Of a DNA stretch of 64,000 bases, positions 3,741-62,400 are shown piece after piece (positions within the stretch are counted from its first letter, which is position 1; each line of letters begins with the position of its first letter). The stretch is from the NCBI GenBank assembly GCA_027307235.1, contig DAHUXH010000007.1, positions 62,001 through 126,000 on the forward strand, read 5' to 3'. The notes beneath the pieces were generated by a model, which was not told where the DNA came from, searched no databases, and saw only the letters and a list, made by a program, of their open reading frames with translations. The translations under genes were made by a program, and so were the position numbers. This DNA comes from Vulcanimicrobiota bacterium (GTDB lineage Bacteria > Vulcanimicrobiota > Vulcanimicrobiia > Vulcanimicrobiales > Vulcanimicrobiaceae).

Positions 3741-3786
3741 GGGGTGCGATGTCGTTGGTAGGCGTGGGGTGGGCATAGGGTAGGGA

Positions 3787-4506
3787 ATGCGTTGTGGCGG
3801 GGATCGATCGGAGTGCGGGTTTACTGTTATTGAAGTTTTGGTTGGGGCGGCGATCGCGGCGACGGTTACGCTGGCGCTGGTGGTGATGGTGACTGCGTTC
3901 GTGCGCTGGTCCAAGCATGCAGCCGCTGCTGTTGCGGCGCAGGATAGCGTCGAGCATCTCGCCGATCGTTTGCGCAGCGAGAGCAGCGGCGCGTGGGCGG
4001 TCTTTCGGCCCGCCGCCGACGTGCTTGGTGCCGACAATAGTGACGGTCACGAAATCGATCTCTTCACGGAAGACGCCTTACGGCGCCGCTATTATTGGGC
4101 GTACCGCTTCGATCGAGAGACGCAGAGCGTGACACGCTACGTCTACGCATCGCCGGGCGCAGGTGCGACGCGCACGAGCGACGTGTATTCCGGCATCACC
4201 GGGTTCTCGGTCGCGCAAGGCGCCGCCGATCAACTCGCGCTCGCCGGAAGTCCCGTGTACGATCCGCTCTTTGCGGCCTCGACGATCGCGGATGCAAGCG
4301 TGACGTTCGATGGAACGACACCGGGTGGAAACGCGGTGAGCGTGGTGACGATCGCAGCGTCGTATCAGGCACGGCGTGTGGCGCTGACGGCCGGCACCGC
4401 GCCGGCGGCCTTCACGCTCGTGCTCGACTACACGCCGAGCCCGCCGCCGCCGCAGCAGCTCTGCGGCAACGGCCTGGGCGGCGATCCGTCGAGCGGAGGG
4501 TGCTAA
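3787..4506 (+). CDS. Type IV pilin-like (pseudopilin) protein
   Basis: The 239-residue product carries a class III signal peptide: a short charged leader ends in G, followed by FTVIEVLVGAAIAATV (about residues 12-27), the prepilin peptidase/N-methylation motif with Glu at mature position 5. One transmembrane helix follows, then a periplasmic domain typical of larger GspJ/PilW-like minor pseudopilins. The tail is rich in proline and glycine, with two cysteines (LCGNG and the final GC). No other type IV pilus or type II secretion genes are visible nearby. The gene converges with the B12 ABC gene, overlapping its 3' end by 4 bases. Fold class is confident; the machine it serves is unknown. Confidence 0.8.
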   Translation: MRCGGDRSECGFTVIEVLVGAAIAATVTLALVVMVTAFVRWSKHAAAAVAAQDSVEHLADRLRSESSGAWAVFRPAADVLGADNSDGHEIDLFTEDALRRRYYWAYRFDRETQSVTRYVYASPGAGATRTSDVYSGITGFSVAQGAADQLALAGSPVYDPLFAASTIADASVTFDGTTPGGNAVSVVTIAASYQARRVALTAGTAPAAFTLVLDYTPSPPPPQQLCGNGLGGDPSSGGC

Positions 4507-38724: not shown

Positions 38725-40062
38725 TTAGAGAATGGTGGTGCTGCCGCCGCTCAGGGCTTCGATGATCAATCGGGTGGCGAGCAAGGCTGAGACTTGCAAT
38801 TGCGCGACCACCGACGTTCCGACTTGCGCGAGGATCTGATCCTTCGTGAACTGCGAGGTGGCTTGTCCGACGTTGATGTCGCGAATGTTGCTGTTCGCAG
38901 CCGTGAGGTTCTGAACGCTGATCGCGCCGTTGTTCGCATCTTCGCTCAGGGAGACGACCTGCGCGCCGACTTGCGCGCGCACCGCGCTGATCGCTTGCAA
39001 AGCGTCGTCGACGCGCGCTTGGGCGTCCTTCGCGGCGAAGTTGTTGCTCGAACTGACGCCGATCGACGTATTGCTCGTCGGGTCGACCGTGGTTGGATCG
39101 AGCACGCTGATGCCCGCGATTTGCAGGGCATTGGTACTGACCGACGGCAGATTGATCGAAACGAGATCGCCTTCGTTTGCTCCGCTGCTGACCTGTAACG
39201 CATGACCGCCCGAGGCCTGCTTGGCCGCGAACTCGATGAAGGTCACCGATGCGCCGACATCTTGCGGCGTGATGTTGCTCAGGCTGTCGGCGACAAACAA
39301 GATGTTGCCGCTCGGGGAGTTGTCGGTGATGCCCGGTATTTGGCCAGCATTGACGGGCACTTGAAAGATCGCGGTGGCTTGCTGTCCGTTGCCGAACGAC
39401 GGATCGTTGCTGAAGTCGGTCTCTTGAACGTCGACTTGTCCGGTCGCCGCGTTGAAGTCGATAATGTGAATCTCTTCCAGGCCCGCGACTTGCGTTTGGC
39501 CGCTCGAACCGACGTGCGGATTGTTGAAGATCGGCCCGGGATTGCCCGCGCCGTCGGCGTTGACGACCGTGTTGGCTCCGGTGGTGCCGTCCGGGTTCGG
39601 ATCGGAGGCGATGATCTCCAAGCGTGCCGGGGTGCCTTGCGAACTGTCGAGCGATCCGTCCAAGAGCGATCGGCCGTTGAAATTCGTGTTTTGAGCGACG
39701 GAGTTGATCTCGACCAGCAACTGATCGATCTCGGTTTGAATGTTTTGCAGCTGTCCTTCGGAGTTGATGTCGGAGCGCGCCTGAACGGTGAGGCTGCGAA
39801 TGCGCTGGAGAATCAGCTGTACCGTCTGCAGCGCGCCGTCGGCGACGGTCAGCGCGTTCTGTGCGGTCTGCACGTTTTGGATGGCGTGCTGTGTGCCGCT
39901 GATCTGCGCGATCAGATTCTCGGAGATGGCGAGGCCGCTCGGGTCATCGGCAGCACTTTGCACGCGTAGGCCAGTGGCCAGCGCGCGCACAAGTTTACTC
40001 TCGTCTCCTAGCGTGTTGGACAAGTGCAAAAGCACCTGGCCGACGCTACCTAGCACATCCAT
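38725..40062 (-). CDS. fliC: Flagellin (orphan copy)
   Basis: The 445-residue protein has the conserved flagellin N-terminal coiled domain: ALATGLRVQSAADDPSGLAI, then QNVQTAQNALTVADGALQTV and LTVQARSDINSEGQLQNIQT. The central part (about 140-330) is variable. The C-terminal helix is recognisable (LQAISAVRAQVGAQVVSL) but ends in an unusual ALLATRLIIEALSGGSTTIL rather than the standard short terminus. The extreme N-terminus (MDVLGSVGQVLLHLS) is also atypical. AGGAGG lies 13 bases before the ATG. No other flagellar gene is in the window. It may be a secondary filament subunit or a flagellin-like surface protein. Confidence 0.85.
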   Translation of the reverse strand: MDVLGSVGQVLLHLSNTLGDESKLVRALATGLRVQSAADDPSGLAISENLIAQISGTQHAIQNVQTAQNALTVADGALQTVQLILQRIRSLTVQARSDINSEGQLQNIQTEIDQLLVEINSVAQNTNFNGRSLLDGSLDSSQGTPARLEIIASDPNPDGTTGANTVVNADGAGNPGPIFNNPHVGSSGQTQVAGLEEIHIIDFNAATGQVDVQETDFSNDPSFGNGQQATAIFQVPVNAGQIPGITDNSPSGNILFVADSLSNITPQDVGASVTFIEFAAKQASGGHALQVSSGANEGDLVSINLPSVSTNALQIAGISVLDPTTVDPTSNTSIGVSSSNNFAAKDAQARVDDALQAISAVRAQVGAQVVSLSEDANNGAISVQNLTAANSNIRDINVGQATSQFTKDQILAQVGTSVVAQLQVSALLATRLIIEALSGGSTTIL

Positions 40063-40171: not shown

Positions 40172-43100
40172 GTGTGGGGTGCCGCAGGCGGCGTGCCGAT
40201 GACCATGGATGGGATGACGACACGGATGAGGCATCGGGTGGGGAGGGTGAGCGCGGGGCGGACGCTTCAGGGCGCCGGCCTGATGTGCATGGGCCTGGCT
40301 CTGCTCGGCGCTTCCTTTAAGGAAGCGCGCGCGGCCGTCCAGTTCGTTGCGCGGATCGCCGCCAGCCCCGCTCCGGCCCCGACGCCCGCCGCGACCGCCA
40401 CTCCAGCTCCGGCTGCGACGCCGGCGGTGCGCTATCGCAATGGCGGACGTTTGGATTTCGCGCTGACCGGGAGCGCCGGGCTCGGGACGCACGCGACCCA
40501 GTTCACGCAAGCGGCGCAACCGCCGTCGCAACCCGGAGCGGCGGCTGCCCCGGGGTTCAGCAGCTCGACAAACTCGACCAACGAGAACCTCGGGCTGATG
40601 GCGGAACTGACACGCCGCACCGCGACCACCACCACCGATTTCCGTTTTCCGTTCGGTTTCTCGAATAACGGGACCACGCTCGGCACGTCGGTCTTCACCT
40701 ACGGCACGCCGAAGTACCAGCTCGGCTACGGCTCGGAGACGATGTCGGCGTTCGGCCAAATCGTCGTCGGCGGATCGCTGCGCGGTCCGTCGATGATCCT
40801 GCCGTTCGGAAACGGCGATATCACCGTTTTCGAAGGCCCAACCTTTGGCGTGAACCTCGAAACGATTCGGACGACCGCCGTGCGCGCGCGCCGTCTCGTT
40901 GGAAGAAACTTGCTCGAAGGCGGCCTCGAGGTGGGCTCGTCCGGGCAGCAGACCGGATCGTCGGCGACCGCGCTGCTGGGTCTTGGTACCTCGCGCGGCC
41001 ATTCGTCGTTCGTCGGCGAGGCGGCGTTTCAGCGCCGCGCCGCTCCCGACGAGAACCTCGCGGGAACGGCGTTCCAAGGCCGCTTCGATCAGGGACTCGG
41101 GAACTCGGGGTTCACGCTCGCGGTACGCCACCTGCCGCAACGGTTCATGACGTACGGCGGCGGCGAGACATTCGGCGATTCGTTCCTGGATGCAAACCTG
41201 CGCCGGGCGATTCACGGCAGCGGACAACTGACTCTCGACAACTCTCTCGAGCGTTCCGACTTTGAAGGTGAACAGACGGTCTCGCAGCGTTCGACGTTCG
41301 GGTTGAGCGGCGAGGTTCGTCACGTCAGCCTCGGGCTGACGTTCCAATCACAGCGGCTGGGCGGCAGCGCTCCCTCGCAGTGGGCAGGGAGCGGGGGACT
41401 GCAAGTGGGCTTCGCCTCGCGCCACGGATTCAATCTCGTGAGCGCGCAGTTGTCGCGTTCCACGCAGCAGTTGGGAAACAGCGTGGGCGCGCTCTCGCTG
41501 ACTGCGCAACTGCAGCGTCAACTCGGGCCGTTCGTCGCACAGGTGACCGGCCAATCGTTGCGGCAGTCCGGCGGTGCGTTGGGTGTGACGTCGCAGATCG
41601 CACAAAGCGCGTCGCTCTCGCGGCTCTTCGGGAAGACCTCGGTGGGGTTCACCTACGGCGCGACGCGCACGCTCTCGCCGGTGAGCCACGCGCTCCAGCG
41701 GACGCCGCTGTTGACGGTGTCGCGGCAGATATCGCCGGTCATCCAAGCCCAGGCATCATACGGAACGCAGGCGCTCCTCGATCCGCTCAATCCCGGCTCG
41801 AACGGACACTCGCGCATCTTCAGCGTGACGCTCAACGCGCCATTCGCATTCGGCAACGGGGTCGTCCAAGGACGCGCCGATCCGAGACTGCCTGCGATCA
41901 TTCGCGGACAGGTCATCACCGACATCGGCGATCAATCCGCGCAGATCGGGCTCGCCACCGGCGGCGTCGGCAACGTCGTCGTCGTTCTCGACGGCCGTGA
42001 CGCGCAGCGCACCGATCTGGCCGGTAACTTCCAGTTTTCATTCGTGACGCCGGGACAGCACGCGGTCACGATCGAGACCACGTCGATCCCGCATGGCCTC
42101 ACCGTCGATCAGCCGGTCGCGAGCGTGACGGTGCAGGGAGGGCAATCCGCGCAAGTGCTCTTCCGCGTCGGAACTTTTGGGGCGGTCTACGGGCATCTGT
42201 ACGGAACCAACCCCGGCGGCGGACAACTGCCGTTGCCCAACGTCGTCTTGCGCGTCGACAGCGGCGCGTTTGCCAAGACCGACCAGCAAGGCGCTTATGG
42301 TTTCGGTCGCCTCGCGCCCGGAACGCATACGATTACGGTCGAGCCGGAGACGGTCCCCGCGTTCGCCAACTTCGCCGCGGACAAGCTGAAGGCGACCGCC
42401 GTGGTTCGCAACGGTGCGATCACCACGCTCGATTTCATCGCACAACCGTTGGGTTCGATCGCCGGCAAGCTCTTCTATGACGCTTCGCTGGCGCCCGACT
42501 ATGCGGGGCCGGTGACCAATGCGTACGTGGTCGCCGAACCCGGCGAGCACGCTGCCATCACCGATGAGGACGGGTCGTTCATCATCGACAATCTGCCGCC
42601 GGGAACGTACACGGTCGCCGTCGACGAAGAGACGGTGCCCGATCAAACCGGTCCGCTCGACCCGCCGTTCACCGTCGACCTCACGCCGCAAGAGCATTAC
42701 GAAGGCTTAGCATTTCGCATCGGACACAAGATCAAGAAGGTCGTCTTCACCTTCCAACAACAGGGTTCGACCACCGAGCAAAGCTCGTCGATCGAACTCT
42801 CGGAGTCGCGTCTGCCGCCTTTGGGAACCACCGACGTGCGCGTCGATGCTCCCAATGCCAAGGGCGTTGCGATCGATGCGTTCGGTAAACCGGCCGCAAC
42901 GCATTACGATCAGCGCCGCAAGCAGTGGGTCGCGACGATCGAGGTTCCACCGGGTACGAAAGCCGGGAAGTTCACGGTGGTCGCCAGCATCGAAGGCGAC
43001 ACGCCGTCGTCGAAGAGCGCCACGCTGACGGTCGATCCGAACGTACCGATCGCGATTTTGCAGGCCACGCCTGCAAATGCCCTCGCCGGTCAGTACGTCG

Positions 43101-43288
43101 TCGTTCGGGCGCGTTTTCTCGTCGATGCCCGCGAAGGCGACAAGATTCAATGGCAGGACGGGAGTACGACCGTGCTCGGAAAGCCGCTCGCCGGGCGAGT
43201 CTTTACGTTTGGCCTGCGTCTTTCTTTACGGCCTCTGCACGGATTACTGCTAACTCACACCTCGCGGCTGCCGATACATCTTCTGTGA
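40172..43288 (+). CDS. Usher-like outer-membrane barrel protein with Ig/carboxypeptidase-regulatory domains
   Basis: About 1030 residues; the longest start is GTG 40172, but ATG 40199 or later gives a better signal peptide (ends near EARAA). A Pro/Ala/Thr linker (about 68-90) leads to a long region of alternating short strands rich in Gly, Ser and Thr (about 95-610), as expected for a large beta-barrel. Three Ig-like domains follow (about 615-705, 706-795, 797-890), each with the D-x-x-G-x-F/Y and P-G-T/Q-H/Y pattern such as TDEDGSFIIDNLPPGTYTVA. A last domain of about 140 residues ends the protein. No textbook PapC/FimD motif stands out, but the size, layout and neighbours fit an alternative usher. 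It heads a six-gene operon. Confidence 0.65.
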   Translation: MWGAAGGVPMTMDGMTTRMRHRVGRVSAGRTLQGAGLMCMGLALLGASFKEARAAVQFVARIAASPAPAPTPAATATPAPAATPAVRYRNGGRLDFALTGSAGLGTHATQFTQAAQPPSQPGAAAAPGFSSSTNSTNENLGLMAELTRRTATTTTDFRFPFGFSNNGTTLGTSVFTYGTPKYQLGYGSETMSAFGQIVVGGSLRGPSMILPFGNGDITVFEGPTFGVNLETIRTTAVRARRLVGRNLLEGGLEVGSSGQQTGSSATALLGLGTSRGHSSFVGEAAFQRRAAPDENLAGTAFQGRFDQGLGNSGFTLAVRHLPQRFMTYGGGETFGDSFLDANLRRAIHGSGQLTLDNSLERSDFEGEQTVSQRSTFGLSGEVRHVSLGLTFQSQRLGGSAPSQWAGSGGLQVGFASRHGFNLVSAQLSRSTQQLGNSVGALSLTAQLQRQLGPFVAQVTGQSLRQSGGALGVTSQIAQSASLSRLFGKTSVGFTYGATRTLSPVSHALQRTPLLTVSRQISPVIQAQASYGTQALLDPLNPGSNGHSRIFSVTLNAPFAFGNGVVQGRADPRLPAIIRGQVITDIGDQSAQIGLATGGVGNVVVVLDGRDAQRTDLAGNFQFSFVTPGQHAVTIETTSIPHGLTVDQPVASVTVQGGQSAQVLFRVGTFGAVYGHLYGTNPGGGQLPLPNVVLRVDSGAFAKTDQQGAYGFGRLAPGTHTITVEPETVPAFANFAADKLKATAVVRNGAITTLDFIAQPLGSIAGKLFYDASLAPDYAGPVTNAYVVAEPGEHAAITDEDGSFIIDNLPPGTYTVAVDEETVPDQTGPLDPPFTVDLTPQEHYEGLAFRIGHKIKKVVFTFQQQGSTTEQSSSIELSESRLPPLGTTDVRVDAPNAKGVAIDAFGKPAATHYDQRRKQWVATIEVPPGTKAGKFTVVASIEGDTPSSKSATLTVDPNVPIAILQATPANALAGQYVVVRARFLVDAREGDKIQWQDGSTTVLGKPLAGRVFTFGLRLSLRPLHGLLLTHTSRLPIHLL

Positions 43289-43335
43289 GAGGCTTTCCCA
43301 ACACTTGCCACGGACGGCACAAGGCTGAAAGGACG

Positions 43336-44034
43336 ATGAAAATTAAGAAACTTGCAGTGCTCGCGGCGATCGCGACGCTTACCCTCCCGGCGGTCCCGGC
43401 GTTTGCAGTCACCACCCAAACCGGCACGGTGACGGTGAAATGGAACACGCAGGCTATCGCCACGATCACCCTCAACACCGATTACACGGCAGCCGGAGCT
43501 CAAGGCGCGACGGTGCCGACGTTCTTGACGAACCAGAACGGTGGTGCCACCGGTGCATGCGGCGGTACCGCCGCGGCTGAGAGCCCCGGCGTGGTGAACT
43601 TCTTCAACGTGACCCCGGACTCGACGAAGTTCACGGACTGCTTGTACGAGAACGCCGTCAACGCGCAGGTCGTGACCAACTCGACCAACTGGGCGGTCTC
43701 GGAAGCCGCGACGGCCGGTCTTCCGGCGGCGAACTACTCGCTGTGCGCGCTTCCCAACGGCGGCGGCGGCACGTTCCCCTTCACGGTCGCGGCAGCGCTT
43801 CCGGCGACGCAAACCGCCCGCGCCGCAGCTCCGGCAATCGTCTCGAATGCGACCTGCCCGGCCGGTGACGTCGACGTCAATGCCGCCGGCGGCAACTTGA
43901 TCACCGGCGAGTCCACCGCGTTCTCGAGCGCAGCGCCGGCGAACATCGGTGAAGACCTCGAACTCGTCATCGCGCCGAACGCGCCGACGGGTGCTCAGAG
44001 CGTCACCGTCACCTACACGCTGACCGCCAACTAA
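43336..44034 (+). CDS. Secreted pilin-like subunit 1
   Basis: The 232-residue protein has a classic signal peptide ending at PAFAV, behind AAAGGA. The mature N-terminus, TGTVTVKWNTQAIATITL, is shared in pattern with the subunit at 44936 (VxVKWxxQAIxxxTLxxxY). The body is a predicted beta-sandwich with cysteines that could pair, and the C-terminus QSVTVTYTLTAN is an alternating hydrophobic strand like that of chaperone-usher and spore-coat-U-type subunits. Position directly after the usher-like gene and before a strong hairpin suggests it is the major fibre subunit. No database family can be named from sequence alone. Confidence 0.65.
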   Translation: MKIKKLAVLAAIATLTLPAVPAFAVTTQTGTVTVKWNTQAIATITLNTDYTAAGAQGATVPTFLTNQNGGATGACGGTAAAESPGVVNFFNVTPDSTKFTDCLYENAVNAQVVTNSTNWAVSEAATAGLPAANYSLCALPNGGGGTFPFTVAAALPATQTARAAAPAIVSNATCPAGDVDVNAAGGNLITGESTAFSSAAPANIGEDLELVIAPNAPTGAQSVTVTYTLTAN

Positions 44035-44044
44035 GACCCCGAAC

Positions 44045-44086
44045 CATCTTCACCGCGGGGCGAGTCCTCGCTCCGCGGCGAAGGTG
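44045..44086 (+). promoter_or_regulatory. Intercistronic stem-loop after the first pilin gene
   Basis: CTTCACCGCGGGGCGAG (44048-44064) pairs with CTCGCTCCGCGGCGAAG (44067-44083) with one mismatch and one G-U; three more flanking pairs extend the stem. No T-run follows, so it is not a standard intrinsic terminator. Such hairpins protect the upstream mRNA or limit readthrough, raising subunit output relative to chaperone and adhesin. Confidence 0.75.
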
Positions 44087-44093
44087 ACCGGTC

Positions 44094-44891
44094 ATGATGC
44101 AGATTCGACATATCGTTTTCGTCGCGGCGCTCGCGGCTGCCATCTTCCTCCCGCCCGTCATGGCCGACTCTGTCGGGCTCGGGCTCGACGTCTCACCGGC
44201 GAAACTCGAAATCGCCATCCCGTCGGGTCAGAGCTACAACATCCCGGTCACCGTGCACAACTCCAGCGGCAGCCTGACCACCGTTCAAGCATCGCTGGTC
44301 GATTTCGGAGTCGCGCAGAACGGCAGCTACGAGTACGACCGGGTTGGTACGAGATCGAATTCCCTTATGAGATGGGCGACGATCAACCCGCGTCAGTTCG
44401 ACCTTCCGGCCGATACGACGCAGCAAGTGCAACTGACGATCACGGTGCCGAACGACGTGCATCTGTCCGGCGAGTACGCGGGGATCGCGTTCTTCCAGAC
44501 GCGGCCGGTTCGCGGCAAAGGTGGGACGATCGCGTTCTCGGCGCGCGTTGCATCGAAGATCTACGAAACGATACCCGGCACAGTCACCACCGCCGGTGCG
44601 ATCGTCAAAATGAATAGCATTTCGAGTCCGTTGGGTCAGACGTATCGCGTGCTGTTCCATAACTCGGGAAACGTGCACGTCTACCTCAACGGTCAAATCG
44701 ACGTCCAGCAGAACGGCAAGAGCGCTGACCGGATCACGATTCAGAATTCGTTGCTGGTCGAGCGCGGCGGCGACCGTCTCATCGAAGTGCAGGGCAAGAA
44801 ACTACCGCCGGGGTCGTATCAAGCGATCGCGACCATCGACTACGGCGGCAAAACGGAGACCGGCGGCGCCATTCAGTTCGACGTACGTTGA
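44094..44891 (+). CDS. PapD-like periplasmic chaperone candidate
   Basis: The 265-residue secreted protein (signal ends near PVMAD) has two Ig-like halves. The first begins LGLDVSPAKLEIAIPSGQSY and carries VTVHNSSGS and LPADTTQQVQLTITVPND, the pattern of PapD/FimC and DUF916-type first domains, where the opening strand binds a subunit's groove. The second half contains YRVLFHNSGNVHVYLNGQID and LPPGSYQAIATIDYGG. A chaperone for the flanking pilin-like subunits is the best reading. An alternative is a structural Ig protein of the fibre. It follows the intercistronic hairpin and starts 60 bases after the pilin stop. Confidence 0.65.
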   Translation: MMQIRHIVFVAALAAAIFLPPVMADSVGLGLDVSPAKLEIAIPSGQSYNIPVTVHNSSGSLTTVQASLVDFGVAQNGSYEYDRVGTRSNSLMRWATINPRQFDLPADTTQQVQLTITVPNDVHLSGEYAGIAFFQTRPVRGKGGTIAFSARVASKIYETIPGTVTTAGAIVKMNSISSPLGQTYRVLFHNSGNVHVYLNGQIDVQQNGKSADRITIQNSLLVERGGDRLIEVQGKKLPPGSYQAIATIDYGGKTETGGAIQFDVR

Positions 44892-44935
44892 CTGCATAGG
44901 AGCGAGCGGGAACAAGGATCGTGGGGTTAGGCTTT

Positions 44936-45604
44936 ATGAGGAAGAGTGTCGGGTGGATCGTCACGGCAGCAATGCTCGCGATGACATTCGCCCCGGCATC
45001 GGCTCAAACGAACGTACCGGGCGCGGTCCACGTCAAGTGGTTCGCACAGGCGATCGTGAAGGTGACCCTCACACCCAACTACTTCACGGGATTCGGTGCC
45101 GTGAAGGCGACCTTCGGCGCGCAGCCCACGCCCACGCACGGTCCCGACGCCGGCCCCGGTGTCGGCCAAGGCAGCATCGACTTCGGCAACGTGCTCTCCG
45201 GCACGGACTATCTCTACAAGTACGCGGCGCACTTGCAGGTCACCACGAATTCCACGACGGGATTCAATCTGTACGGCGAAGGTGCGGCCGATTTCGTCAA
45301 TCAGAGCGGCGGTTCGGAGCCGATCTCCTCGACCGTGTTCTATCTCAACTCCACGAGCGGCAGCCCGCCCGACACGAACACCGGATTCTCCGGCGCGTTG
45401 CCGTTTCAGCGGACGGCCGGCACACCGTCGAGCACGTCCTTTGGACTTCCGCCGACGATCGCGTACACCGGTTTCCCGGCGCCGATCGCGGTGAGCCCGA
45501 CACCCACCGCGGATTTCTTCTACGACTATGAATTGAAAGTGCCGCCGAGCGCAACGGGCGGAAACTACTTCGTCTGGATCGTCTACACGGTGGTGCCTCA
45601 ATGA
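44936..45604 (+). CDS. Secreted pilin-like subunit 2
   Basis: The 222-residue product has a signal peptide ending at ASAQT and a mature N-terminus GAVHVKWFAQAIVKVTLTPN that parallels subunit 1. A GSIDFGNVLSGTDYLYKYA block resembles the IDFGNVL block at the C-terminus of the large protein encoded at 46329. The C-terminal strand is GGNYFVWIVYTVVPQ. The ATG at 44936 is chosen; a GTG at 44921 would add five residues. The stop overlaps the next start as ATGA. It is probably a minor or adaptor subunit. Confidence 0.62.
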   Translation: MRKSVGWIVTAAMLAMTFAPASAQTNVPGAVHVKWFAQAIVKVTLTPNYFTGFGAVKATFGAQPTPTHGPDAGPGVGQGSIDFGNVLSGTDYLYKYAAHLQVTTNSTTGFNLYGEGAADFVNQSGGSEPISSTVFYLNSTSGSPPDTNTGFSGALPFQRTAGTPSSTSFGLPPTIAYTGFPAPIAVSPTPTADFFYDYELKVPPSATGGNYFVWIVYTVVPQ

Positions 45605-46329
45605 AGAGCCGGCGCATTGTTTCGTGGTTCCTGTTCGCGCTGATCGCGTTGACCGCCGCCATGGTGGCGACGACCGAGAAGTCGTCGGCGATCGTGCAGC
45701 AGCAGCGATCGCAGATCGCGATTCCGATCATCATCAACGTGACGCCGTCGCCACTCGCGTTCGCACCCGCGAACGCGAGTGCGAACGCGATCGTGGCGTC
45801 GTTCGTGCGCTCGGCTGGCGCACCGGCGCACTACGTCGATCCGGTCGCGGCGCTGTTCGCCGGGGCGCGCGTAGTCGTCGCACAGACCAACCAGCAAGCG
45901 GTGCGCGTGGAAGCTGAAGTGACGCCGAACCCCAATGCGACGTTGCTGACCGCCAACAACTTCTCTGGTCCGATCCCCGGCGAGGTCGTTTTCACCGGCT
46001 TCTCCGGCGCGAAGCTGACGCAGAGCTGCGCCTATCAAGTGAAAGTCCAGACCACGACGGTCGGGTGGAACTTGGAGCAAGGCCTCTCCAACGATTTCTC
46101 ATCGGGCTTTCCGGGCGGCGATCTCGCGAACAATACGTATCTGATTGCCGCGACGCCGCAGCCGGTGGCGACGCCGTTCATCGTCTTTCCGGACAACAAC
46201 AATGCGTTTACCGAAATGGCCAAGAACGGCGGTACGCAGACCTATTGCGTCGATCTCACGATCACCATTCCCCAAGGTCTCGCTGGAGGATCGTACGGCA
46301 CCAATGCGATCTACACGTTGTTCTTCTGA
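45601..46329 (+). CDS. Secreted pilin-like subunit 3
   Basis: The 242-residue protein starts with a basic signal segment and hydrophobic helix ending near SSAIV. It lacks the VKW motif of subunits 1 and 2, but has two cysteines (QSCAYQV and TYCVDLT) that could form a disulfide, and ends in GGSYGTNAIYTLFF, again a terminal amphipathic strand typical of fibre subunits. It overlaps both neighbours (ATGA upstream, TGATG downstream), so production is tightly coupled. The likely role is an adaptor between shaft and tip. Confidence 0.58.
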   Translation: MKSRRIVSWFLFALIALTAAMVATTEKSSAIVQQQRSQIAIPIIINVTPSPLAFAPANASANAIVASFVRSAGAPAHYVDPVAALFAGARVVVAQTNQQAVRVEAEVTPNPNATLLTANNFSGPIPGEVVFTGFSGAKLTQSCAYQVKVQTTTVGWNLEQGLSNDFSSGFPGGDLANNTYLIAATPQPVATPFIVFPDNNNAFTEMAKNGGTQTYCVDLTITIPQGLAGGSYGTNAIYTLFF

Positions 46330-49300
46330 TGCGTAACATGTTGCGGCAACAGGTTTCCCTCATCGCGATGGCGCTGTTCGCGGTGATGTCACTCGCGACG
46401 GTCGCGTTCGCGCAGGTGCACGGGCCGGCCGGTCATCCGATCGCCACGCCGCGCCCGATCGTTCTCTCGCCCGCGCCAAGGGCGGTTGTGCCGCCGCGCG
46501 TCGTTCCGGTTCTGAACGGCGGACATTTCACCGGGGCCCTGCCCGGAACGAAGGTGCCGCTGTCGATGCTGCCGCCTTTGCCTTTGCGCACGTCAGCGAA
46601 CAGCTTTCGACCAAGAGACATGGGCCATCGGCGTATTCTCTCCGCCGACGGGGGGACCATCAACGTGGCAGCCGGCGGCGGGTGCGGCGGGACGGTCGGC
46701 GACCTCTTTAACGTCGGTTGCCAAGTCTCGTGGCAGTCGAACGGCCTGCCCAACGCGGATACGAAACAAGATTTCGTCGTGCTCTCCAACAACGGCAACG
46801 AGTCGACCGCATCGGCCACGGCCACCGGCGGGACATACGGCGGAACCGCCGGCAACACGCACTTTCTCACGCTGAACACGCCGGGCACCTACATCTTCGG
46901 TACGTTTGACACGACCCGCGGCGTGTGGTTGACGGTGGTGTACATCGACGCCGGAAGCGCGTCCACGATCAAGGTGTTCCAAGATGCGTTTCACACGCAG
47001 GAACAGTATCAGTTCGACGCAGCGAGCAACGGCAACGCGTTCATCTTGGCCAACGACCTGCCGACGACCGACCAATACGTCGTCTACGTCGAGAACGAGT
47101 CGATCCACCCGTCCTGCATCTTTGTTGCGCCTGCCGCCGTCCCGGCCGCCGGTGCGGGGCAGCTCTGTACTCCGAATAATTCGCCAGGCCAACCGGCACC
47201 GAGCGGTTCGCTTGCCGTTAGCTGGCCGATCACTTCGGCGACGCCGGGCGGCTCGTTTGCGGTGGTGCTCTACGACAAGACGATCTCGCAGCGGCTAGGC
47301 CAAGTGCAGGTCTCGGTCACGCCGGCCTTCGGCTTGGTCCTGACCGCCGTACCAGATAACGCCATCGCAGCGGGGTCGACCAATCCTTCACCGCAGCCGG
47401 CGCCGATCGCGACACCGTCGGCAACGCTTGCGTGGGATGATTTTACCGAGCAGTCCACCGACGGCGTCAAGGTCACGATCGCGACGACGCTCGCGCACAA
47501 CTTCTTGTGGACGCTGAGCGACCCGACCGGAACCGTGGTGTCGCAGGCCGCGGCGACCGGCGGATCGTCGCTCAGCCAATTGTTCACCTTCGCCGGAAAC
47601 GTGCAATCGCCGGGAGATTATCCCTCACCGGTCTTCACCGTCAACCTCCTCGACACGACGCAAAACACGATCCAAGCGTCGCAGGCGATCAAATTGGTCG
47701 GATACCACACTACGACCGCGTTTCACACAGTGAGCGATGCCGCGTCGCTCTCGATCGTGCCGGGCGCCAGTTCGACCGCCGCGATCATCTTCAGGAACGA
47801 CAGCGACACGTTCTTCGGTGTCAATAGTGCCGACAGCATGTCGGGCTTCGCGATCACGTCCGGCAATGATTTCACCGCCAACGACGCAACCGGAAACGGC
47901 ATCGAGATGGCGCTCAACGGCAAGACGCTGGCGGCATGCACGCCGTCCTGCTCGGGTACCGCCACCGATTCGAACGGCAACACCTGGACGGTCACGGATC
48001 ACTGCAGCGCGGCCGCGATCGGTCCGAACTCGGAGTGCTGGCTCGAAGCCCATCCGCCGAACGGTCAAACCTCCGTTCCGCCGGGTGGGACGCTGACGGT
48101 TCCCACGCTGACCTTCTTCAACGCCAACGGCAGCGCGTGCGGAAATTCGTGTGAGGGGTTCATCTCCATGCTGCCGACGCACGGTGTGCAGTGGTCGGAT
48201 CCGCTGCCCGGCGGCTCGGTGACCGCGTTCGCGCCGGTGTTCTTCACCGACGGGTCGACGACACATACCGCATTGGCGCATATCGCGCTGGTCGGCGCCC
48301 AAACGCCCGCTAGAAACGCATTGAACGGCAATCCGCCGGTTGCGCCGTTCCCCGAAACACACCTGTATCCGACGCGTTTCCAGCAGGCCCTCTACGATCA
48401 GCCGACGCCCTACAACACGACGCAGGCGTATATCGACGCCTACGGACTGACCATTCATAACACCGGCACGTCATCGATCACCTCCGTTGCGCTGGAGATG
48501 CCGGGACCGTTCGCAGCCAACAACACGCTGATCAATTTTCAGATAGACGGGCGCAGTGCGGGCAACTGGAATCTCGTGATTCCCTGTCCGGGGGGCAACG
48601 TCAGCGCGGCGTTCAGTTGCTTCGTCGCGCGCGGCGGGCACCGGATCAATGCGGGAGGAACCGAGACCATCTTCTTCGACGCCAACTCGATCCCGACGAG
48701 CGTCCCCTATCAAGATCTGATCGTCGAGTCGGCGGCGCCGTTTCAGTTCTTCATCTCGCCGGACAACCCGGCGGTCCAGGTTCCGGTGGGTCCGGTGCCC
48801 GGATTTACCGTCGATTCCCTCGCGCTTTCACTGTATTCCCTCGACAGTTCGCTGATGTCGACGGCACTCAATCCTTCGAGCGTCGGTGCGGGCAGCACGC
48901 CGTCGGAGAACATCGTCATCACCAACACGACGACGGCCGCCGATCCTGCGCCGGAGCCGGTGGATCTCGTCATCGTCAACGTCCCGAGCGCCAACGTCAG
49001 CGGCGTGCCGACCGCCAACACTCCGGGATGGAGCCTGATCGGCACCCAAACCGTCGGCGCGACCAAGGAGTTTTGGTTCGGTCTGTGCGCGGCGCAGTTC
49101 GTCGTTGCCGACGGGCCGCCCGCGGCGACGCCGAACACGAATGTTCAGCCTGGCGTACCAACGTGCACCGTGGCCCAAGAACAAAACAGCTCGTTGCAGC
49201 CCGGCGGGTCGCTCAGCGTCAATATGAACCTGCAGAATTTGGTGGCCGGCACGCCGGTGAACTTCACCATGTTCGCGCACGGCGCCGACGTCAACGGCTG

Positions 49301-50303
49301 GTCATCACCGCGAGCGTTTGCGCTGGACGTCACGTCAACATCGGCGAGCGCGGGTTTTTCCACCATCAACGGCAGCGCCGTTCCGGTGAACACCGAGCCA
49401 TCGATCGGCGGTTCGCCCAACACGTACGTCTACCAGATCAAGAACACGAGTTCGGCGGGGAACAACCTCACGAGCATGTCGATCTCGATTCCGAGTAAGG
49501 ACGTGAACGGGAACAACGCCACTGATACCCAAGGCGTGACGTGGACGCTGCAAGGCGCGCCGACCTTGAGCGGAAACGTCGATGGATGCGCGATCACCGG
49601 AACCCAGAATGCGAACACCAGCGGCGCGCCCAACGGCTTCATCAACATCGGCGGCGCCGGCTGCAGGCTCTTGCCGGGCGACACGATCACGGTGACGTTC
49701 ACCGCCATCTCTCCCTCGACGCAAAACGGCGAATATCAGTTCGTGACCACGGTCAATCCCGGCAACAATGTCGCGGGTGAGACCTGGCTCGGCGATACCC
49801 GCATCCGCGTCTCGCTGAACATCGGTCTCGATCTCGTCGTCGGACCGACCAATCCGGGACCGGGCGGCTCGGCGCCGTCGGTGAGTTGCACGTCGTGTAC
49901 GTTCGCCGGCAACACCATCGACTTCGGCAACGTGTTGAACAACACGTCGCAGGCCTTTGGCGACGTCGTGCGCGCGAGCGTCACCGTCGTCTCCGGTTCG
50001 CCGGTGAATTGGAACCTCTCGGTGCAGACCAACGTCAATCCGGCGAACAGCACCGGGGCGCCGACCAACGAACTGCTCACCGCAGTGGACGGGGGAGCAT
50101 CGTCACCGGGCGCCGGCATCACCGTCGATCAGGCGGCCTTCGGCGTCGTGCCGACTGCATCGTCACTGCTGCTCGCCAACGGAACGAGCATCGTCGGTCG
50201 GGCGAAACCGTACGACGTGATTCAGAGCTTCAAAATCTCCATGGGTGCGGAACCGCCGGCCCCGACGATCTCAACGATTACCTACACGCTCGTCGCCAAC
50301 TGA
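46329..50303 (+). CDS. Giant secreted protein with C-terminal pilin-like domain, probable fibre tip adhesin
   Basis: The 1324-residue protein has a signal peptide ending at VAFAQ and a Pro-rich segment (about 30-100). Several successive beta-rich domains follow, with many Thr, Ser, Asn and Gly residues and scattered cysteine pairs (GGCGGTVGDLFNVGC, CTPSCSG, CGNSC, SCTSC). Repeats of the form PGGSLSVNM or PGDTITVTF suggest Ig-like modules. The last 150 residues contain IDFGNVLNNTSQAFGDVV and end ISTITYTLVAN, matching the subunits encoded upstream. A lectin- or adhesin-like N-terminal region fused to a pilin domain is how two-domain tip adhesins are built. It is the last gene of the fibre operon; the phosphatase gene begins 7 bases later. 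Confidence 0.62.
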   Translation: MRNMLRQQVSLIAMALFAVMSLATVAFAQVHGPAGHPIATPRPIVLSPAPRAVVPPRVVPVLNGGHFTGALPGTKVPLSMLPPLPLRTSANSFRPRDMGHRRILSADGGTINVAAGGGCGGTVGDLFNVGCQVSWQSNGLPNADTKQDFVVLSNNGNESTASATATGGTYGGTAGNTHFLTLNTPGTYIFGTFDTTRGVWLTVVYIDAGSASTIKVFQDAFHTQEQYQFDAASNGNAFILANDLPTTDQYVVYVENESIHPSCIFVAPAAVPAAGAGQLCTPNNSPGQPAPSGSLAVSWPITSATPGGSFAVVLYDKTISQRLGQVQVSVTPAFGLVLTAVPDNAIAAGSTNPSPQPAPIATPSATLAWDDFTEQSTDGVKVTIATTLAHNFLWTLSDPTGTVVSQAAATGGSSLSQLFTFAGNVQSPGDYPSPVFTVNLLDTTQNTIQASQAIKLVGYHTTTAFHTVSDAASLSIVPGASSTAAIIFRNDSDTFFGVNSADSMSGFAITSGNDFTANDATGNGIEMALNGKTLAACTPSCSGTATDSNGNTWTVTDHCSAAAIGPNSECWLEAHPPNGQTSVPPGGTLTVPTLTFFNANGSACGNSCEGFISMLPTHGVQWSDPLPGGSVTAFAPVFFTDGSTTHTALAHIALVGAQTPARNALNGNPPVAPFPETHLYPTRFQQALYDQPTPYNTTQAYIDAYGLTIHNTGTSSITSVALEMPGPFAANNTLINFQIDGRSAGNWNLVIPCPGGNVSAAFSCFVARGGHRINAGGTETIFFDANSIPTSVPYQDLIVESAAPFQFFISPDNPAVQVPVGPVPGFTVDSLALSLYSLDSSLMSTALNPSSVGAGSTPSENIVITNTTTAADPAPEPVDLVIVNVPSANVSGVPTANTPGWSLIGTQTVGATKEFWFGLCAAQFVVADGPPAATPNTNVQPGVPTCTVAQEQNSSLQPGGSLSVNMNLQNLVAGTPVNFTMFAHGADVNGWSSPRAFALDVTSTSASAGFSTINGSAVPVNTEPSIGGSPNTYVYQIKNTSSAGNNLTSMSISIPSKDVNGNNATDTQGVTWTLQGAPTLSGNVDGCAITGTQNANTSGAPNGFINIGGAGCRLLPGDTITVTFTAISPSTQNGEYQFVTTVNPGNNVAGETWLGDTRIRVSLNIGLDLVVGPTNPGPGGSAPSVSCTSCTFAGNTIDFGNVLNNTSQAFGDVVRASVTVVSGSPVNWNLSVQTNVNPANSTGAPTNELLTAVDGGASSPGAGITVDQAAFGVVPTASSLLLANGTSIVGRAKPYDVIQSFKISMGAEPPAPTISTITYTLVAN

Positions 50304-59425: not shown

Positions 59426-62400
59426 GCGGAATGCACCTCGTGGCGAGGAGCCAAGGCTCCGTACAGCACCGGGATCAAGATGAGCGTGAATGCCGTTGCG
59501 GTCGAGAGTCCGCCGATGACGGCTATGGCGAGCGGCCGTTCCATCGCGGCGCCGGAACCCTGCCCGAAGGCCAGCGGCAGCAGGCCGCCGATCGCGGCAA
59601 ACGTCGTCATCAAGATCGGACGCAGACGTTCGTGCGCCGCGCCGACCAGCGCGTCGGTCGTGCGCTCGCCTTGCGACGAGCGCCGGTTCGCGGCGTCAAT
59701 CAGCAAGATGCCGTTCTTCACGACGATGCCGACGAGCAGCAGCAGACCCATGAACGACGAGACGTTGAACGGCGTGCGCGTGATCGTGAGAGCGAGCGCG
59801 ACGCCGATGAGCGCGAGCGGGACAGCGGCGAGCACGACGACCGGCAAACGATACGAACGAAACGCCACCAGCATCACGAAGAAGACGAAGAGGACGGCGA
59901 TGGCGATCACCGAGAGAAATTCGCGGAACGAATCCTGTTGCTGACGATACGCGCCGCCGATCTCGGTGCGATACCCGGGTGGCATCGCGATCCCCGCGAG
60001 TTCGCGGTTGAGTCCGTCGATGGCCGACGACAGGCTGCCCGCGAGATTGGCGGTCACGATCACTTCGCGCTGACCGTTGAGTTCGGTGATGTCGGTCGAG
60101 GTGCGATCGACTGAGGTGGTCGCTAGCAGACTGAGCGGCAGATCGGCGCCATGAAACGGCACGTCCGCGGGTGTCCCGCCCTGCGCCCCGGTGACGCCGA
60201 TGCGCACCGGAACCAGCATCGTCGGCTCGGCGAGTTGGGTCGCGACCGTGCCTTGCGTCGCGGCCGAGAGCGCGCTCACGAGCGATCCCGTGTCGATACC
60301 GCTGCGCGCGAGCTGTGCAAATGACGGCGAGACGCGCGTGGTCGGATCGTCCTGAACCACACCGGAGAACGCATCGGTGATGCTCGGAATCTTGCTCATC
60401 CCATCGGAGATCTTGGTCGCAAGGCCGTTGAGCACGGTCTGATCTGGACCGGTAACGGCCACTTGAATCGGTTGCGGCGCGCCTGAGAGGTCGTTGATCA
60501 AATCCTCGATGATCTGGTGGATGTCGAGTTGGGCTGCCGGAACGGCGTTCCCGAGCGCGTCGCGCAACCGCTCGCTGATGACGTCGTAGGACGCGCGCTC
60601 GTTCAGCGGTTTGAGTTTGACGCGAATCGTTCCGTTGCGCACCGGCGTCGGCGAGAATCCGTTGGTGTCGATACCGGTGAAGCGGCCTTCGGCAACGACG
60701 GCCGGGTCGGCTTTGACGATGCGTTCCATCTTCGCCGCCGCCGCGTCGCTCTCGGCGATCGTCGTTCCGACCGGCATGACGTAGGCGATCTCGAACTGGC
60801 CTTCGTCCAACTGCGGCAAGAAATCGCTGGGCAAGATCTTCAGCAGGATGACCGTGACGATCAGCACGAGCGCGGAAAGACCGTAGACGGCGATGCGATG
60901 ATTCAGCGCCCAGCGCAGGATCGGATCGTAGCGGCGCAGCGCGCGCGTAATCGACGACGGCTCGTCGTGCGGCGTGTGCGTGCGTAGCGCAAGACGCGCC
61001 AACACCGGCGTGAAGCCGACGGCGAGCGCGAGCGACACGATTAAGGCCGAAGCGAGCGTCAGTGCGAGCGAACGGAAGAATGCGCCGCTGACTCCGCTCA
61101 GAAGCGTCAACGGCAAGAAGACGACGACCGTCGCGAGCGTCGAGGCCGTCATCGGGCCGACCAGCTTACGTACGGTGGCTTCGACGACTTCGCGAATCGG
61201 CATCTCCGGCTGATCGTGCAGCGTTCGTGCGATGCCTTCCACCACGACGATCGCGTCGTCGATAATGAGTCCGACCGCGATCGCGAGACCGCCGACGCTC
61301 ATGATGTTAAGCGTCTGCCCGAAGGTGTGCAACGCGAAGATCGCGATGGCGAGCGCGGCCGGGATGACGATGGCCGAGACCAGCGTGATGCGAAGATTGC
61401 GCAAGAAGAAGAAGATGACGCCGACCGCCAGCGCCGCGCCAAGCAGGATGGCGTCGCGCAAGCTGCGCTGTGAATCGACGACGAGGTCGTTCGCATCCCA
61501 GTATTGATGCAAGACGATGCCGCTCGGCAGCCGGCGCGCCAGGGCAGCCAGGCGCGACTTGACGCCCTCGCCCATACTCACTTGATCGGCGCCGGCCAGG
61601 GCGTAGAAATTCATGGCGACCCCGTGCTCGCCCGCGTATCCAAACTGTTGTGTCACCGGTGCCGTCGCGAGTTCGACCGATCCCAGCGAGGAGAGCGGTA
61701 TTCCCCTGCCCTGCGCGTTGGGCACGACGATGTCGCGCAACTGTGCGGCGGTGCGTAACTGCGCGTCGACGACAAGCGCCGAGCGCTGCGAGAAGTGCTC
61801 GGCGATGCCGACGGCTTCGACGTCGTTGGCTTGTGCGACCGCATCGCCGACGTCTTTTGCGGAGATTCCGGCGGCGGCAAGCGCCGAAGGATCGAGCGTG
61901 ACGTGATACTCGCGCGTGGGGCCGCCGACCAGCAGCATGCGTCCGAGGCCGGGGACGCCGTACAGCGCCGGAATGATGTTCAGTTGCGCGTACTCGCGCA
62001 GCAACGTCTGCGACACGGTCTGTGATGTCAAGGCGAACGACACAATCGGTTCGCTCTGCGGCTGCACGACGTTGGCGTCAACGTTGGTGCCGGGCGGGAG
62101 CTGCGCGCGTTCGCGAGAGATCGCTTGGTCGACGTACTGGAGATCGACCTGCGGGTCGGTCTTGGGATCGAATTCGACCACCCATTCCGCGCTGCCGAGC
62201 GCGGAGGTCGTCCGCACGCTTTGCGCGGATGGAAGACCGAGGAATTCGCGTTCCAGCGGCATGGTGACGGCGACGCGCACTTGCTCCGGCGGAAGATTGC
62301 CGACGTCGGCAACCACGTCGATGCGCGAGAATTTCATCTCCGGGAAAATGCTTGCCGGAGTCTGCGTATACGACGCAAGCCCCAGGACGACAAGCACGGC

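Follow-up and report, generated by a model that had tools for sequence, protein, structure and literature searches.

Gene content and conservation of the operon

We analyzed a window of 64,000 nucleotides (positions 62,001 to 126,000 of contig DAHUXH010000007.1, assembly GCA_027307235.1) from a member of the Vulcanimicrobiota (formerly Ca. Eremiobacterota), a poorly cultivated phylum; the host lineage is described as a lineage of soil bacteria. TonB-dependent receptors are encoded in the window and the cell is therefore diderm, with an outer membrane. On the forward strand, positions 40172–50303 carry six co-directional open reading frames (ORFs) in the order usher-sized protein, small subunit 1, a protein with two immunoglobulin (Ig)-like domains, small subunit 2, small subunit 3 and one large protein. 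An initial annotation made from the sequence alone had proposed a new chaperone-usher-type surface fibre operon at this site, and its gene coordinates and gene order were confirmed by the ORFs. Overlaps occur at two junctions, between subunits 2 and 3 (4 nt) and between subunit 3 and the large protein (1 nt); the remaining intergenic gaps measure 44–62 nt. The three small proteins and the large protein had been described as secreted; an N-terminal hydrophobic, signal-peptide-like segment was found in each of the six.

To survey the distribution of the operon we used about 148 genomes from the phylum; 41 of them encode the barrel protein at full length. Subunit 1 occurs in 39 genomes, all of which belong to these 41 (39/39; hypergeometric p ∼1e-33, a value not corrected for phylogeny), and subunit 3 in 37, of which 36 belong to them. 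The operon is confined to two families of one order. In ten other loci that we compared the six-gene set is collinear or nearly so: the same genes form a conserved block in L016–L019, L021 and L029, their order is permuted in L023 and L030, and a partial set is found in L020 and L022, where the locus is incomplete or runs into a contig end. L030 stems from a metagenome-assembled genome named Candidatus Eremiobacterota, for which the current taxonomy name is Vulcanimicrobiota. Given the collinearity in ten loci and the co-occurrence of barrel and subunit 1, the gene set is not due to chance: the six genes are real and conserved as a set.

The encoded proteins

The two-Ig-domain protein (44097–44891, 264 aa) is the component with the clearest relatives. 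Its closest Pfam family is WxLIP_PGBD, which matches 14 of 16 family members; the window protein scores 25.7 bits, just under the cut-off of 27.3. Four genomes of the phylum yielded a match over the cut-off, and in three the matching protein is an operon orthologue, a member of the operon's own family. In profile-profile comparisons (values are match probabilities) the protein family matched WxLIP at 98.6% over 226 columns, or 92.6% when only Bacillota WxLIP sequences were used, and the archaic pilus chaperones of the same phylum at 95.4% over 202 columns. Both matches are collinear over the two domains, including the N[SD]GNVH stretch, and the real profile scored far above 30 of 30 decoys. 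WxLIP and archaic chaperones matched each other at 89% (22% with Bacillota sequences only), also above 30 of 30 decoys. The archaic chaperones of the phylum served as the reference because FimC alone makes a poor control profile, which they match at only 11%. An orthologue from genome G019 was modelled mostly at a predicted local distance difference test score (pLDDT) >90, and its best folds in the PDB were the E. faecium WxLIP structures 9i1y and 9i25, followed by CfaA, CsuC, YadV and Caf1M. Searching the PDB by sequence with the family profiles gave no informative relative, so that 9i1y emerged by fold only, and the chaperone family PF00345 was not matched. Lys36 and Lys154 are invariant in 11 of 11 close orthologues; a correspondence to the two basic residues in the cleft of PapD is plausible. 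The window protein ends at its second Ig domain and lacks a C-terminal transmembrane helix. Its homology extends to WxLIP (DUF916/DUF3324) as well as to the chaperones of archaic chaperone-usher systems, and its earlier description as a two-domain, Ig chaperone-like protein is supported.

The first gene (40172–43288) encodes 1038 aa when read from GTG; this start is probably too early, and translation more likely begins at the ATG at position 40199. A signal peptide and a Pro/Ala-rich linker are followed by a predicted wide β-barrel and C-terminal Ig-like modules. In the AlphaFold2 model (mean pLDDT 74, predicted template modelling score (pTM) 0.48) DSSP assigns ∼23–24 long strands, counted by hand, to residues 94–561 (40451–41854). 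A stretch of short strands at residues 165–212 lies where a plug or constriction could be expected. A Foldseek search of the PDB with the barrel model returned 1025 matches, of which the ten best are all FimD or PapC ushers (E 2e-16 to 5e-13), while porins rank below them (E about 1e-5 to 1e-6). We therefore predict, with moderate confidence, an outer-membrane barrel of usher fold with ∼24 strands, in agreement with the usher-sized wide barrel proposed initially. By sequence, the Pfam Usher model PF00577 found none of the 11 barrel orthologues and nothing in the window's genome; elsewhere in the phylum the same model does detect ushers, in 23 genomes. Neither was a TonB plug domain found by Pfam in the orthologues. 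The part behind the barrel (residues 575–1038, 41894–43285) comprises about five Ig-like or transthyretin-like modules according to the strands of the model. Three had been noted before, which is the number of CarboxypepD-type modules recognised by Pfam but falls short of the model; CarboxypepD_reg is present in 11 of 11 orthologues. The modules matched the region that follows the barrel in the phylum's own archaic ushers at 88% over 155 columns, whereas a generic CarboxypepD domain of TonB receptors gave only 13% in this comparison. Secreted proteins of ∼720–730 residues that bear only the first post-barrel module are encoded at L142 2775–4961 (−) and L143 1088–3274 (+), on contigs shared with the operon in G019 and G006.

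Three small proteins accompany these two components: subunit 1 (43336–44034, 232 aa, four invariant cysteines), subunit 2 (44936–45604, 222 aa) and subunit 3 (45601–46329, 242 aa, two invariant cysteines), each defined by a family alignment. Subunits 1 and 2 are paralogues (99.9% by profile-profile comparison) and share VxVKWxxQAIxxxTL, which had already been pointed out and is exact in both. It lies in the N-terminal strands VTVKWNTQAIATITL of subunit 1 (43429–43473, conserved in the alignment) and VHVKWFAQAIVKVTL of subunit 2 (45026–45070), both of them candidate donor strands. The N-terminus of subunit 3 differs and is rich in alternating hydrophobics. The large secreted protein is confirmed at 46329–50303 with its 1324 residues; it is a probable adhesin, has its own family alignment and matches no Pfam family above cut-off. 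Its C-terminal domain (49776–50300; motif NWNL, terminal ITYTLVAN) is subunit-like and matches subunit 1 at 88% from residue ∼61 on, that is, without the N-terminal strand.

In order to place these subunits we compared their profiles with known families. WxL was matched by subunit 1 at 22%, by subunit 2 at 3% and by the C-terminus of the large protein at 40%; for subunit 3 it was the best outside match, at 34% (34–60% depending on profile depth). The values of 22, 3, 40 and 34% each lie above 40 of 40 shuffled decoys. In contrast, the subunits matched Fim pilins at <1% and SCPU at 0.1–6%. The terminal Y-T-L motif is in register in the WxL alignments, as is the W-x-L motif in the large protein. 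The WxL-like motifs of subunit 1 are W120 and YTL228 (P0002 numbering, with one extra leading residue), and the spacing between proximal and distal motif is 107–108 residues in subunits 1 and 2. The similarity of the three small proteins and of the C-terminus of the large protein to WxL is weak but consistent, and we regard it as suggestive. Scans of the single operon proteins against Pfam and NCBIfam found only CarboxypepD and the sub-threshold WxLIP match; there was no Pfam usher, chaperone or pilin among them, as anticipated by the remark that no component gives a textbook FimD, PapD or FimA match.

Position between WxL clusters and chaperone-usher pili

WxL clusters are composed of small WxL, WxLIP and large WxL proteins (Hassan and Williamson; PMC9772566, PMC10599100), and insertion of a DUF916 strand into WxL has been predicted (PMC10599100); a structure of a WxLIP-WxL complex is found in the PDB (9i25). 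Like the WxL/WxLIP (DUF916-DUF3324) clusters of Bacillota such as E. faecium and L. plantarum, the operon combines a two-Ig WxLIP-type protein and small WxL-like proteins in one cluster of secreted proteins, together with one large multidomain protein that bears a WxL-like domain at its C-terminus. It differs from them in its diderm host, in the added outer-membrane barrel, in the missing transmembrane helix of the WxLIP-type protein, and in its distal motif, which is YxL instead of WxL; the Pfam WxL model (PF13731) misses the window subunits. With archaic and alternative chaperone-usher pili (Csu, CupE; CfaA for class 5) it shares a PapD-like two-Ig chaperone, a wide barrel with C-terminal Ig modules and several small subunits beside a large one that ends in a subunit-like domain. 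However, its barrel is not a Pfam Usher, has no folded N-terminal domain and carries ∼5 Ig modules, and its subunits are not SCPU, a family (PF05229) with no member in the window's genome. The predicted barrel fold is closest in the PDB to the ushers of classical type 1 and P pili (FimD/PapC), although no operon component showed detectable sequence similarity to these systems in the searches made.

Sister operons elsewhere in the phylum unite Pfam WxL, WxLIP-type and barrel proteins. In L038 (6764–13911), from another family, a candidate barrel protein of 926 residues with CarboxypepD-like modules is encoded together with a WxLIP-type protein, five small proteins of WxL type and one additional small protein; three of the five exceed the Pfam cut-off. 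This operon is the cleanest case of WxL plus barrel in a diderm and may lend itself to study better than the window does. L041 (3256–8999, −), again from another family, encodes a WxLIP-type protein, a barrel candidate whose reading frame is broken into two overlapping ones, and three small WxL-like proteins. N bases occur in one of the small genes, and the one small protein scanned matched WxL below cut-off.

From the conserved gene set, the FimD/PapC-like barrel, the homology of the chaperone to WxLIP and archaic chaperones and the sister operons, we consider it fairly likely that a divergent system for export and assembly, chaperone-usher-like and composed of WxL-type parts, is encoded here. 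For the chaperone, homology is shown by computation; for the barrel it is supported by fold. The initial annotation had spoken of a possible undescribed chaperone-usher branch outside the Proteobacteria. The usher-like barrel, the archaic-type chaperone and the non-proteobacterial host agree with this; however, the operon is not simply another branch of these pili. Because the chaperone is nearest to WxLIP_PGBD and in fold to E. faecium WxLIP, and because the subunits are more WxL-like than Fim- or SCPU-like, it stands between chaperone-usher and WxL/WxLIP systems.

We infer donor-strand assembly, an order of export and fibre formation. Subunits would enter the periplasm by Sec, where the two-Ig protein would cap each of them by lending a G1-like strand (residues ∼143–160, VAFSxRVASKIYxTIP). 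The chaperone-subunit complex would then dock at the Ig modules on the periplasmic side of the barrel. As the tip adhesin, the large protein, whose subunit-like domain stands at the C-terminus only, would leave first, and subunits 1–3 would be exported after it. Their N-terminal strands (VxVKWxxQAI...) would displace the strand of the chaperone, and a short fibre or stalk would result.

Several results weigh against such a system. The template modelling scores of the barrel to ushers are modest (∼0.20–0.28 by query, 0.32–0.49 by target, at a pTM of 0.48), and in profile comparison no sequence relation between it and archaic ushers could be detected, as 16 of 30 decoys score as high. In FimD a folded N-terminal domain recruits chaperone-subunit complexes. 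Such a domain is absent here: residues 55–93 are Pro/Ala-rich with pLDDT mostly <50, and the barrel begins at 94. The WxL similarity of the subunits is as low as 3–40%. We also modelled a chaperone-subunit pair as a fusion of two in-frame neighbouring G019 genes, reading TAG and TGA as Ser; in the fused-query alignment (MAFFT), ∼19 residues at the N-terminus of the subunit rows remained misplaced. The chaperone half was confident. The subunit half came out mostly at pLDDT <80, with large parts <50, too low for an incomplete Ig fold or strand complementation to be seen.

A rather unlikely alternative is a diderm surface complex of WxL type that forms no fibre. The WxLIP-like and small WxL-like proteins would escort or hold the large adhesin in a single-copy complex, with the barrel as export pore and anchor. 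The content of the operon mirrors that of monoderm WxL clusters, which have WxLIP, one or two small WxL proteins and one large WxL protein (PMC9772566, PMC10599100), and the same protein set was found in L058. Moreover, the motif spacing in subunits 1 and 2 is near the ∼106 residues reported for small WxL, and there are three small subunits instead of one dominant pilin. However, a usher-like barrel and conserved N-terminal strands in two paralogous subunits exceed the needs of a simple anchor, and the WxLIP-type protein here lacks the C-terminal transmembrane helix of WxLIP. The agreement of the chaperone (95%) and of the C-terminal Ig modules (88%) with their archaic counterparts in the phylum could in principle reflect an ordinary archaic chaperone-usher system that has merely drifted. 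This is improbable, as true archaic operons are separate in the phylum (Usher in 23/148 and SCPU in 22/148 genomes, neither in the window's genome), nine genomes with the operon's barrel carry a Pfam Usher as well, the subunits match WxL better than SCPU, and the barrel shows no detectable sequence relation to archaic ushers. Least probable of all are unrelated surface proteins beside a porin-like or receptor-like barrel with no joint assembly: porins do appear among the Foldseek matches, but ushers outrank them by about ten orders of magnitude, Pfam finds no TonB plug domain, and the genes co-occur strictly in a conserved operon.

A broader reading is more tentative. WxL/WxLIP in monoderms and chaperone-usher pili in diderms might be two branches of one ancient strand-complementation system, of which the operon family, with its WxLIP-type chaperone and usher-like barrel, would be a surviving intermediate. 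In the open-access literature searched (subscription papers and bioRxiv lay outside its scope) we found no relevant paper with both WxL and ushers; the operon ties together two textbook surface systems not found connected there. It suggests a role for WxLIP as a PapD-like chaperone and for WxL domains as subunits that accept a strand, so that what WxL clusters do in gut bacteria and enterococci can be tested directly. Furthermore, a poorly cultivated phylum gains a candidate adhesive organelle, and the operon family can serve as an out-group when the origin of the usher is studied.

Reduced relatives and neighbouring genes

In reduced relatives, from Deinococcus (L055, L056) and from the phylum (L024–L028), the chaperone homologue adjoins small secreted proteins as it does in the operon, and a large CarboxypepD-bearing protein is present in L055, L056 and L028. 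Unlike those of the operon, their subunits are of different, highly diverged types, and none of these systems has a solved function. The Deinococcus plasmid operons (L055 6880–12626, L056 6863–12548) encode two small proteins, the chaperone homologue and a CarboxypepD-bearing protein of ∼1060–1090 aa in the order small-chaperone-small-large, all annotated as hypothetical or by domain only; a literature search for DR_A0283 found nothing useful. At L025 (6777–10786, −) three paralogous secreted proteins of ∼187 residues (ATTFTVAATVNTIATINIST type), possibly another subunit family, lie beside the chaperone homologue, together with a 796-residue protein that has a weak copper-amine-oxidase N1 match. 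Bona fide archaic ushers of Vulcanimicrobiota were collected as L136–L141, some with SCPU subunits nearby (L124–L135). A WxLIP_PGBD match over the Pfam cut-off was also seen in the control genome of Thermotoga maritima, which belongs to an envelope-rich, diderm-like lineage.

Within the window, a flagellin gene (Flagellin_N and Flagellin_C; 38725–40062, −) lies upstream of the operon and is transcribed divergently from it, ∼110 bp from the GTG start. The downstream neighbour appears, as judged by eye, to be an inositol-phosphatase-type gene. At 3784–4503 (+), adjoining a TonB-dependent receptor, lies a possible type IV pseudopilin-like gene with a weak N-terminal methylation motif that scores below cut-off.

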